DNA from: Rhizobium sp. Root1203
GTDB taxonomy: Bacteria > Pseudomonadota > Alphaproteobacteria > Rhizobiales > Rhizobiaceae
Assembly (NCBI RefSeq): GCF_001424945.1
Contig: NZ_LMCW01000003.1
Coordinates: 19,677-83,676, forward strand
Reading direction: 5' to 3'
Length of the DNA stretch: 64,000 bases
Shown here: in pieces, positions 18,922 through 24,465 of the stretch
Numbering within the stretch: position 1 is the first letter of the stretch
Layout: the number at the start of each line of letters is the position of its first letter
The notes under the pieces: generated by a model
What the model was told of the DNA's origin: nothing
Databases searched by the model: none
Seen by the model: only the letters and a program-made list of their open reading frames with translations
Program-made: the position numbers and the translations under genes

Positions 18922-18957
18922 GACCGGTCGCTTCAAAGCGGCCGGTTAATTTTTTTG
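18922..18957 (+). terminator. Terminator of ilvD
   Basis: ACCGGTCGC pairs with GCGGCCGGT (one G-U pair), loop of 6, followed by AA and a run of seven T. The hairpin lies over the last codons of the convergent gene at 18933-19286. Confidence 0.85.
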
Positions 18958-19286
18958 TAGGTTTCATCCAGTTGCGTCAGCCGCTCCTCATAGGCGGCCT
19001 TGATACAACTCGCATCCGCCTCGCATGCCTGTCTCGTCTTTAGCCACGCCGTCTGCTCATCCTGCAGCGTTCCGCGTGCGCCCATTGCCATGAGCCCTGA
19101 GAGAAGGTCGAAGGTGGTCACCATCTTCACGTCGGCATCGTTGAGAGCCCGATTGTCGCAGATCGCCTTCTCATCGGGCTTCAATTCCTTGCTGTCGCAG
19201 TTGAAGCTCGCCGCATTGGCGATGCTGGACGTAAGAGCCAGAACGGCGGTGGCCATAAGGAGGAGAGGGCTGCGGTATCGCGTCAT
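18933..19286 (-). CDS. Secreted LprI-like (lysozyme-inhibitor type) domain protein
   Basis: The protein is 117 aa with a signal peptide (MTRYRSPLLLMATAVLALTS, cleavage probably after ANA at about residue 25). The mature part has four cysteines and the pattern FNCDSKELKPDEKAICDN followed by QTAWLKTRQACEADASCIK, which fits the LprI N-terminal domain family (PF07007). That family includes lysozyme inhibitors but is mostly uncharacterised. The final codons are shared with the ilvD terminator on the other strand. The function in the periplasm is inferred only. Confidence 0.75.
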   Translation of the reverse strand: MTRYRSPLLLMATAVLALTSSIANAASFNCDSKELKPDEKAICDNRALNDADVKMVTTFDLLSGLMAMGARGTLQDEQTAWLKTRQACEADASCIKAAYEERLTQLDETYKKINRPL

Positions 19287-22337: not shown

Positions 22338-22640
22338 TTAAGATGCCCGCATCTGTCCAGTCGCCGGAGTGATCTTGACCGAGGACTCCGCGAGCCCATG
22401 GTGGCCTTCCATGTCGACCACGAGATGCCAGTGGCCGCTCTCGGGGATGGGCATGCGGATGGGGGATTTGCGGGCGACACCGCCTACATACTTGAAATCC
22501 AGGACCTCGGTAAAGCGCTGGTAATTCGGCGCGGTCATCAGCCGCACATTCGCGACAGCGTTCAGCGTCACCTCGATGATCGTCCCGGCCCGCTGGTCTT
22601 TGAGATCGTAGTGGGTAAAGCGAAAATTCGGTTTCGACAT
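22338..22640 (-). CDS. DUF1883 domain protein
   Basis: The protein is 100 aa. It contains FTHYDLKDQRAGTIIEVTL, ANVRLMTAPNYQRF, VGGVARKSPIRMPIPESGHW and HLVVDMEGHHGLAESSVKI, which I recognise as the DUF1883 pattern (PF08980). The function of this small beta-rich family is unknown. AGAAG lies 7-8 bases before the ATG. The stop meets the rarA stop tail to tail. Confidence 0.7.
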   Translation of the reverse strand: MSKPNFRFTHYDLKDQRAGTIIEVTLNAVANVRLMTAPNYQRFTEVLDFKYVGGVARKSPIRMPIPESGHWHLVVDMEGHHGLAESSVKITPATGQMRAS

Positions 22641-22751: not shown

Positions 22752-23015
22752 TCAATGGATACGTCCACCGTCGCCTTCAAGTGGCATGAACTGCAATACC
22801 ACATCGTCACGGCTGTGAGCGATCTGCGTGGGATCATGGCCGCACTCATCGGCGGCGAAGTGACGAGCTGCGTCCTCGCTGGCGAAAATGCCGCCGACGA
22901 GTCCGTCTCGATCCTGAACCACCCAATGGCCACTCTTGTCTTGGCCGATGGTGAAACGCACCGTTTCTTTGTGCCGGAGCGGTGAAATGGGGGGACGCGA
23001 ATGAAGGGAAGGCAT
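22752..23015 (-). CDS. Small conserved-type protein of unknown function
   Basis: The protein is 87 aa with AAAAAGGAAAACG as ribosome site. The centre reads RFTIGQDKSGHWVVQDRDG then GGIFASEDAARHFAADE, a layout seen in small DUF2188-like proteins in which a strand pair is followed by a helix. I do not recognise a function. It has no signal peptide. The next gene upstream on this strand starts 96 bases away. Confidence 0.6.
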   Translation of the reverse strand: MPSLHSRPPISPLRHKETVRFTIGQDKSGHWVVQDRDGLVGGIFASEDAARHFAADECGHDPTQIAHSRDDVVLQFMPLEGDGGRIH

Positions 23016-23111: not shown

Positions 23112-24026
23112 TCATAGCGGTAGGGATTTACTGCGAAGATCGGATACCAATGTCAGGGCATCGAATACGGAGGTTTTTTCGTCAGGAGCCAACGCGACCA
23201 TCGGCAGCCGAACGCTCGGGTCTGTACCGAGGAGGACATGGAGCGCGTGTTTGACGGCGGACGGATCGCCGTCGGCGCCCAGAGCCTGCACCAGCGGGAG
23301 AAGACGTCCCTCGAGCGCCAGTGCGGCGTGGACATTTCCGGCGCGCGCCGCCTGTTGCATTGAGGCAAACAGTCGGGGATGGATATTCGCTCCAGCTGAG
23401 ATAATGCCGTCGCCGCGCTGACCCAAGAAGGCGCGCGCCGTATCGTCGCGGTTGGAAAGGAAGGTGAACCGATCGCGCAGATGCCGCGGCAGATCGACTG
23501 AACAGATATCGGTGTCGAGCACTCCCACCAAGGCGACGATCGACGGGATGCAGGAAAACGCTTCTAGCGTCTCCCGGGAAAGGCTGATGGCGCAACGAGA
23601 CTGGTTACTGTCGACGATAAGGGGCAGCGTCGTTTCGGCCGCCAACATCTGGAAGTGATGCACGACGCCCCTCTGCAGGGGTTTGGAATAGTAGGGGGCG
23701 GTGACCAGAGCCGCGCTGGCGCCGAGATTCTCTGCCTGGCGGGTGAGGGCGATGGTGCTTGATGTGGAATTGGTGCCTGTCGCGGCGATGATCGGTACGC
23801 GACCGGCTGCAACCCGGACACATGTCCGAACGACTTCGGCCTGCTCCTCCATGGAGAGGGTCGGCCCTTCGCCGGTCACTGTGCAGACTGCCAAGCCGTC
23901 AATTCCGGAACGGATCTGTCGTTCCGCCAGTTGCTCCAGCGCTGCGAGATCGGGTCTGTCGCCACGAAACGGTGTAATCAGCGCCGTCGTGATAGTGCCG
24001 AGGCGCAACGATATGTGTGTTCGCAT
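23112..24026 (-). CDS. Dihydrodipicolinate synthase / N-acetylneuraminate lyase family protein lacking catalytic residues
   Basis: The protein is 304 aa, normal for the DapA family TIM barrel. Family features are the start LGTITTALITPF, the turn VTGEGPTLSMEEQ (residues 50-62), APYYSKPLQ (110-118) and the RGDGIISAGAN block. However, the position of the DapA tyrosine (YNVPSRT) reads VDSNQSRC with Asp139, and the Schiff-base lysine (IIGIKEA) reads IVALVGV with Val167. It is therefore unlikely to be an aldolase. The gene is probably co-transcribed with the small membrane gene 6 bases upstream. Confidence 0.8.
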   Translation of the reverse strand: MRTHISLRLGTITTALITPFRGDRPDLAALEQLAERQIRSGIDGLAVCTVTGEGPTLSMEEQAEVVRTCVRVAAGRVPIIAATGTNSTSSTIALTRQAENLGASAALVTAPYYSKPLQRGVVHHFQMLAAETTLPLIVDSNQSRCAISLSRETLEAFSCIPSIVALVGVLDTDICSVDLPRHLRDRFTFLSNRDDTARAFLGQRGDGIISAGANIHPRLFASMQQAARAGNVHAALALEGRLLPLVQALGADGDPSAVKHALHVLLGTDPSVRLPMVALAPDEKTSVFDALTLVSDLRSKSLPL

Positions 24027-24032
24027 GGGCTG

Positions 24033-24188
24033 TCAGAATCCCCCAAGGATCACATAGAGCTCGACGGTGGCGAGCACGATGCCGAAAACGATCAGCGCCT
24101 GCGCCGTTCTTTTTTCACGCATCTGTCGCCTTTGCATCGGCCTACGTGGGCGGGCGACGAGAAAGATCGGGGACATGAAATATCGCAT
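24033..24188 (-). CDS. Small membrane protein of unknown function
   Basis: The protein is 51 aa from ATG 24188 (a longer in-frame start at 24323 has no ribosome site). It has a basic N-terminal half rich in Arg and Pro, then one membrane helix TAQALIVFGIVLATVELYVI near the end. GAGGT precedes the ATG. The stop is 6 bases before the degenerate DapA-family gene, which suggests an operon. Confidence 0.45.
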   Translation of the reverse strand: MRYFMSPIFLVARPRRPMQRRQMREKRTAQALIVFGIVLATVELYVILGGF

Positions 24189-24465
24189 GGCTTTTACCTC
24201 TGCATTGCAAGGAAGGCTAACGCCGCGCGCCCTAGGAAATCCATTGGGGGCAAGATCGAAAGAAATATAAATAATATAAAGAGCGCCATCATTCGCAACA
24301 GCTGTGAAACGCTGGAATATCACGTAAAAACAAGTATTTGGCTGCGATCTCTGAATCGATGCAGGAGGCGTTTGAATCTAGAAGACAAGCAGAACTGGCT
24401 TGATCTGCGGGCGGAATGCCGAACATTATTGAAATATATCCGAACGAACCATTGCAGCGATTGAT

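Follow-up and report, generated by a model that had tools for sequence, protein, structure and literature searches.

The stretch of DNA analysed here (the window; 64,000 nucleotides of Rhizobium sp. Root1203) carries on its reverse strand a short run of genes around a DapA-like gene, here called DapAL. The features of this run are, in the direction of reading:

24189..24282, reverse strand: non-coding 5' block ahead of smTM1, conserved in 22 of 22 aligned loci
24263-24281, reverse strand: AT-rich element of the 5' block
24233-24246, reverse strand: ATGGATTTCCTA-type element of the 5' block, with a few differences between species
within 24189..24282, reverse strand: ribosome-binding site
24033..24188, reverse strand: smTM1, 51 aa with one hydrophobic stretch, 6 bases before DapAL
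23112..24026, reverse strand: DapAL, a DapA-like pseudoenzyme of 304 aa with Val167, Asp139 and Val50 at catalytic positions, uninterrupted reading frame
22752..23015, reverse strand: hyp87, 87 aa with the motif RFxxGxxxxGxWxxxxxxGxxGGxF, co-inherited partner of DapAL
22338..22640, reverse strand: DUF1883 gene, end of the conserved run, which remains at the locus where DapAL and hyp87 are missing

The serial order of the genes in most named Rhizobium loci is smTM1 - DapAL - (in some lineages a second small transmembrane, TM, gene) - hyp87 - DUF1883 - rarA - degQ - ilvD. No dap genes were found among the conserved neighbours of DapAL, i.e. those seen are hyp87, the TM genes, DUF1883, rarA, degQ and ilvD. 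In the lineages of R. leguminosarum and R. tropici, the gap between DapAL and hyp87 holds the second single-TM gene, of ~55-84 aa (L047, L060, L064, L070 and L078 are among these loci); at the locus in the window there is no space for it. A small protein with a Pfam match to LprI, a lysozyme inhibitor (E 1.6e-05), is encoded at 18933-19286 on the reverse strand and is conserved beside degQ.

The stop codon of the upstream ORF is separated from the DapAL start codon by 6 bases, exactly as the original prediction had it. Read from a GTG, the smTM1 frame would span 96 aa, but the ATG start that gives 51 aa is favoured, since a purine-rich AGAGGT-/AAAGGT-like site stands ahead of this ATG in most of the 22 aligned loci. 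The N-terminus of smTM1 is basic (RQMREKRTA). Its single hydrophobic stretch contains a Glu that is invariant in 13 aligned rows, which is unusual for a simple anchor. hyp87 matched no family in Pfam or NCBIfam; its structural model (β-β-β-α-β) is of low confidence and had no significant match in the PDB (best E 0.45), the YegP-like entries being a weak lead. The PADLOC models did not match DapAL, hyp87, DUF1883 or smTM1 at E 0.1, and these proteins may still have a defence role.

The 5' region of the window matched no Rfam family. The ATGGATTTCCTA-type element, with one mismatch allowed, occurs in its own genome once here and once elsewhere, and the exact ATGGATTTCCTA site was found exactly once, at the DapAL locus, in five of seven other genomes and was absent from the remaining two. 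The element looks locus-specific, and a regulon marked by it was rejected because such sites are rare outside the DapAL locus. An upstream mini-ORF was likewise rejected as the cause of its conservation, since the frame varies by species and stops early in two loci (L041, L044). Regulation by EcfG, the general stress sigma factor with the strict promoter consensus GGAAC-N16/17-CGTT, was also discarded: the strict promoter was found within 700 bases upstream in 0/75 loci, and a looser one in 2/75, at about -650.

Alignment of DapAL with DapA places Val167 at the position of the Schiff-base Lys (end of strand 6) and Asp139 at that of the catalytic Tyr of the T-Y-Y triad. Both replacements had been foreseen by the original prediction, which missed the replacement of the first Thr of TTGE (Val50) as well as the presence of M, Q and S at the positions equivalent to H53, H56 and E84. 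The latter are the lysine-allosteric positions of DapA (E. coli numbering). The equivalent of Y107, the Tyr reaching in from the neighbouring subunit, is retained as Tyr113. DapAL has lysines at positions 115, 259, 284 and 300 only, and none of the four lies in a barrel strand or in the five residues that follow one.

The barrel is otherwise complete, as had been expected. The DHDPS profile (PF00701) covers residues 10-291 with E 1.3e-58, and the AlphaFold2 model has the complete DHDPS fold (pLDDT 89.5, pTM 0.90). In other words, DapAL has the whole-domain profile and the predicted TIM barrel with C-terminal helical domain that define the DHDPS/NAL superfamily. MosA of Sinorhizobium meliloti (2vc6) is the top PDB match of DapAL by sequence and the top Foldseek match of the model (TM 0.88, 38% identity); by Z score it is second, tied with the first (Z 40.7, rmsd 1.9 over 291 residues). 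MosA is an extra DapA-type protein in rhizobia. Unlike DapAL, it retains both Tyr and Lys in the alignment, and MosA look-alikes with the KGVKDATGNLLR stretch (L030, L178, L195) fall among ordinary DapA in a tree that did not include MosA itself.

The DapA of the same genome (G000:C67:37308-38150) is 37% identical to DapAL. The two share the full-length fold and the GE, GTN and PYY motifs of DapA (PF00701, TIGR00674), but DapAL lacks the Schiff-base Lys, the catalytic Tyr and the first Thr, has altered allosteric lysine positions, is linked to hyp87 and falls into a separate clade. Of the sequence and tree features that mark a functional DapA (EC 4.3.3.7), DapAL has the Y107 equivalent and lacks the Lys, the Tyr, the first Thr and a position among DapA in the tree. 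Nevertheless, DapAL scores 206.7 bits against the NCBI dapA equivalog model, just above the cut-off of 206.15, which 8 of 10 Lys-less members tested also pass.

The closest named relatives of DapAL are found in Rhizobium spp., with identities of up to 63%. A match at E 1e-55 was present in 92 of 148 Rhizobium genomes; one of these matches (G062) is an ordinary Lys-bearing DapA according to the tree, so this genome was counted as DapAL-negative, giving 91 positive and 57 negative genomes. The state of the Lys column was determined on 76 distinct Rhizobium-type proteins (different within residues 21-260), rather than in each of the 91 genomes; they are what is left of 92 distinct proteins once 5 that are ordinary DapA and 11 that belong to other genera have been dropped. 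Lys is absent in 75/76 and Tyr in 74/76 of them, keeping in mind that the scan which supplied most of the named loci used patterns of the Lys-less family and may have under-sampled Lys-bearing relatives. The Lys column contains A (30), V (21), L (8), I (6), R (5), C (4), T (1) and K (1). The only protein with Lys (L011, identical to L171, genome G025) has the small TM, hyp87 and DUF1883 neighbours of the Lys-less Rhizobium loci and is a basal lineage, sister to all Lys-less Rhizobium proteins with a support of 100/97. The replacements are thus clade-wide and not a local mutation of the present strain.

The 45 Lys-less rows of the tree alignment were inspected for compensation, which was taken as a Lys on the catalytic face only. 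In none of them does a Lys occur within a barrel strand or in the following five residues, so that no migrated Schiff base is apparent from the alignment. (L042 was excluded from two alignments because its reading overran its stop.) Seven residues (V, A, R, C, L, I, T) occur in the Lys column and seven in the Tyr column, the latter in addition to one remaining Tyr; no new fixed residue was seen at either column among these rows, and even close relatives differ, e.g. R versus T in L047 and L008. Conversely, the Tyr-Tyr motif of the tight dimer is largely intact (Y107 equivalent 45/45, Y106 41/45), the equivalents of R138 and of the second Thr are kept in 31/45 and 29/45 rows, and the alignments show strong conservation over roughly half of the catalytic face (TPF, GE, GTN, PYY and AN motifs).

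This pattern bears on two explanations in which DapAL would still be an enzyme. The conserved half of the catalytic face would suit a new, Schiff-base-independent chemistry in the same barrel, an option that the original prediction had also raised. With seven residues at each of the two columns, differing between close relatives and fixed in none, we consider it improbable, and the variety at the Lys position in particular speaks against it. Catalysis could also persist if Lys-less members used another residue with pyruvate or formed mixed oligomers with Lys-bearing subunits; the retained Y107, R138 and second Thr equivalents would be in line with this. The absence of a catalytic-face Lys in all 45 rows and the fact that the DHDPS active site is built within one subunit, except for Y107, make this highly improbable. 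In short, a class I aldolase or one new conserved chemistry fits poorly with a varied Lys position and a catalytic face devoid of Lys. The retention of the Tyr-Tyr motif and of the whole fold suggests a barrel dimer that is kept as a structure.

The selection acting on DapAL was estimated by the Nei-Gojobori method. The ω values were 0.11-0.30 in the 25 closest pairs, and the median was 0.25 with a maximum of 0.56 over 615 pairs, which are not independent. The median values for the neighbouring genes were 0.16 (hyp87), 0.33 (smTM1), 0.09 (DUF1883) and 0.045 (rarA). In nine other genome pairs DapAL had ω values of 0.10-0.32, as opposed to 0.016-0.067 for the true DapA encoded in these genomes, i.e. 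dN was ~5-20 times and ω ~3-11 times higher in DapAL. DapAL is therefore under purifying selection, with a weaker constraint on this dead enzyme than on true DapA. The family has two hallmarks of a pseudoenzyme, in that catalytic residues were lost with no compensating Lys on the catalytic face and selection continued after the loss. As judged from the sequences, the widespread loss of Lys together with purifying selection supports the first half of the original interpretation, i.e. lost catalysis with a retained function; the different chemistry it offered beside this is disfavoured. Neither of the two findings that the original prediction named as counter-evidence turned up, as the one Lys-bearing relative in the genus belongs to the basal sister lineage and the catalytic face shows no alternative Lys.

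DapAL is also dispensable. It evolves faster than true DapA, 57 of 148 Rhizobium genomes have no match at E 1e-55 (G062 being included in this number as explained above), one copy is frameshifted (G088, where hyp87 is still there and an assembly error is possible) and another has an in-frame TAG (G165). These decayed copies, a locus with only a hyp87 remnant (G033), the missing matches and the faster evolution compared with DapA could all be expected of a slowly decaying relic that is kept by chance. We give little credence to this explanation, as ω does not exceed 0.56 in any of the 615 pairs and is far lower in the closest 25, there are 75 distinct Lys-less proteins in Rhizobium alone, and the gene cassette is found in several families.

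The original prediction had paired DapAL with the 51-aa membrane protein. The adjacency is real, but it is not the key link. Using absence cut-offs of E 1e-55 for DapAL, 1e-5 for hyp87 and 1e-3 for smTM1, hyp87 was found in 91/91 DapAL-positive and only 3/57 DapAL-negative Rhizobium genomes, whereas smTM1 was found in 91/91 and 35/57, respectively (126/148 overall); the 148 genomes are related, so Fisher values calculated on such co-occurrence overstate the evidence. Accordingly, the faithful partner of DapAL is hyp87, a downstream gene that the original prediction had left unmentioned, and smTM1 is a resident of the locus. The rarA loci of 17 genomes counted as DapAL-negative show the same: 15 lack both DapAL and hyp87, the remaining two are the frameshifted copy and the hyp87 remnant mentioned above, and a match to smTM1, in some cases weak, is kept in 16. 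hyp87 lies 1.0-1.4 kb downstream of DapAL in 62/62 named Rhizobium-type loci (L031-L090, L093, L095). Its motif adjoins DapAL, on either side, in 29/29 loci both with and without Lys, these loci being hand-picked, none of them from Lichenifustis, and the motif being defined from members already seen.

Relatives of DapAL also occur outside Rhizobium. Lys-less ones were found in Ancylobacter (L099), Lichenifustis (L091, L092), on plasmid pAt of Agrobacterium tumefaciens Ach5 (L179) and in three further genomes (G233, G465, G537); the Lys-bearing ones come from a plasmid of Phyllobacterium (L177) and from two more genomes (G410, G393). In all of them except Lichenifustis, hyp87 lies beside the DapAL-like gene, either upstream or downstream. 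Near the two Lichenifustis genes, one of which begins at a contig edge, no hyp87 was found by eye in the stretch examined. A small TM-like ORF is located near by in 7 of the 9 hyp87-linked loci compared and is absent at G465 and G537.

Of 397 Hyphomicrobiales genomes searched for hyp87, 48 gave hits, and these represent 19 of 141 genera. A DHDPS-family gene was located within 1.5 kb of hyp87 in 19/30 loci fetched, or 11/22 without the 8 loci known before, figures that are biased toward such loci since the search model was built from DapAL-linked copies. The remaining 11 of the 30 loci, in other genera (L215, L216, L219, L221-L224, L226-L228, L231), have no DHDPS gene within this distance, i.e. 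hyp87 exists in other settings too. Family f35 (genomes of 4.8-8.4 Mb) contributed seven members in which Tyr is replaced by His and Lys by Arg or Cys, and three other families contributed four Lys-bearing DHDPS-family members. The Lys-bearing cassette members retain the whole active-site set. As to the small TM proteins, those near DapAL in f35 (L229, L232, L233, L235) and in Lichenifustis (L091, L092) have an L(N/S)xWDE motif in common, and small TM ORFs are also seen near Lys-bearing cassettes in other lineages.

The trees were built without the active-site columns. The Rhizobium-centred cassette clade is separated from true DapA with a support of 100/98 (52 rows) and, in a tree with more rows overall, of 96/88 (45 rows); the f35 group has a long branch that attaches close to the root. 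By parsimony, Lys was lost twice in the first tree and three times in the second, along with four changes of Tyr. A single clade of all Lys-less rows was rejected with p-AU 1.6e-5, for a group defined after inspection of the tree and in the presence of long branches. By these sequence comparisons, Lys seems to have been lost about three times independently. The Lys-bearing cassette members branch close to the base of the clade, so the association with hyp87 in a cassette probably predates the losses. This suggests that DapAL descends from a Lys-bearing DHDPS-type paralogue that was already part of the hyp87 cassette, and catalysis may have been the ancestral job of the cassette aldolase, as the Lys-bearing members keep the full active-site set.

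A true DapA with Lys and Tyr was present in 14/14 Rhizobium genomes fetched, and pseudoenzymes are often regulators of their own active paralogues. One may therefore ask if DapAL is a regulatory subunit of DapA that tunes lysine and diaminopimelate synthesis in mixed tight dimers or tetramers, for which the retained Tyr-Tyr motif would be suitable. We find this rather unlikely, given that dap genes are missing from the conserved neighbourhood, that DapAL evolves so much faster than DapA in the nine genome pairs and that the two proteins had split before Lys was lost according to the tree.

The reading we prefer, with a probability of roughly 0.55, is that DapAL is a pseudo-aldolase which, within a small membrane-linked cassette, serves for binding or as a scaffold and not for catalysis. 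A non-catalytic role near the membrane is what we infer from the co-inheritance of hyp87 and the small TM proteins in the run. The proposed course of events would start with a Lys-bearing DHDPS-type paralogue whose gene shared a cassette with those for hyp87 and small single-TM proteins. Lys, Tyr and usually the first Thr would then have been lost in several lineages, including Rhizobium, while the barrel, the Tyr-Tyr motif and purifying selection were kept. The TIM-barrel dimer of DapAL would bind hyp87, its remodelled pocket might hold a small metabolite, and the small TM proteins would place it near the membrane, where its contacts with them and with hyp87 could give it a scaffold or sensor function with a regulatory output. 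A broader version of the same reading, which we put forward tentatively and hold to be doubtful rather than probable, is that Hyphomicrobiales have an undescribed membrane-linked system made up of DapAL, hyp87 and the small TM proteins. Its ancestral keto-acid aldolase would have become, about three times independently, a metabolite sensor without catalysis or a scaffold for hyp87.

Pseudoenzymes as such are well known, and DapAL resembles them in general by its lost catalytic residues, its retained fold and selection, and the presence of an active paralogue in the cell. Pseudoenzymes in general are treated in two reviews (PMC5106787, PMC10211241). A full-text literature search showed no paper on the DapAL family and no pseudoenzyme of the DHDPS family, let alone one that combines a fixed small partner with a repeated origin. 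Seven dapA isoenzymes of R. etli are listed in a passage of PMC9611204, and three dapA copies are up in maize exudate according to a passage of PMC8581550, the Lys state being unstated in both passages. By term search, dapA does not occur in the main text of three further papers (PMC11406972, PMC11103875, PMC5118466).

Since DapAL and 8 of the 10 Lys-less members exceed the NCBI cut-off, and the Agrobacterium pAt protein (L179) is indeed annotated as 4-hydroxy-tetrahydrodipicolinate synthase, proteins of the DapAL type can be named active DapA, and counts of rhizobial dapA genes as well as metabolic models may include dead copies. If the proposed history is true, this cassette family, with both intact and dead versions of one aldolase, would be a replicated natural experiment in enzyme death, and the approximately three losses of Lys would allow one to ask which function made catalysis dispensable.
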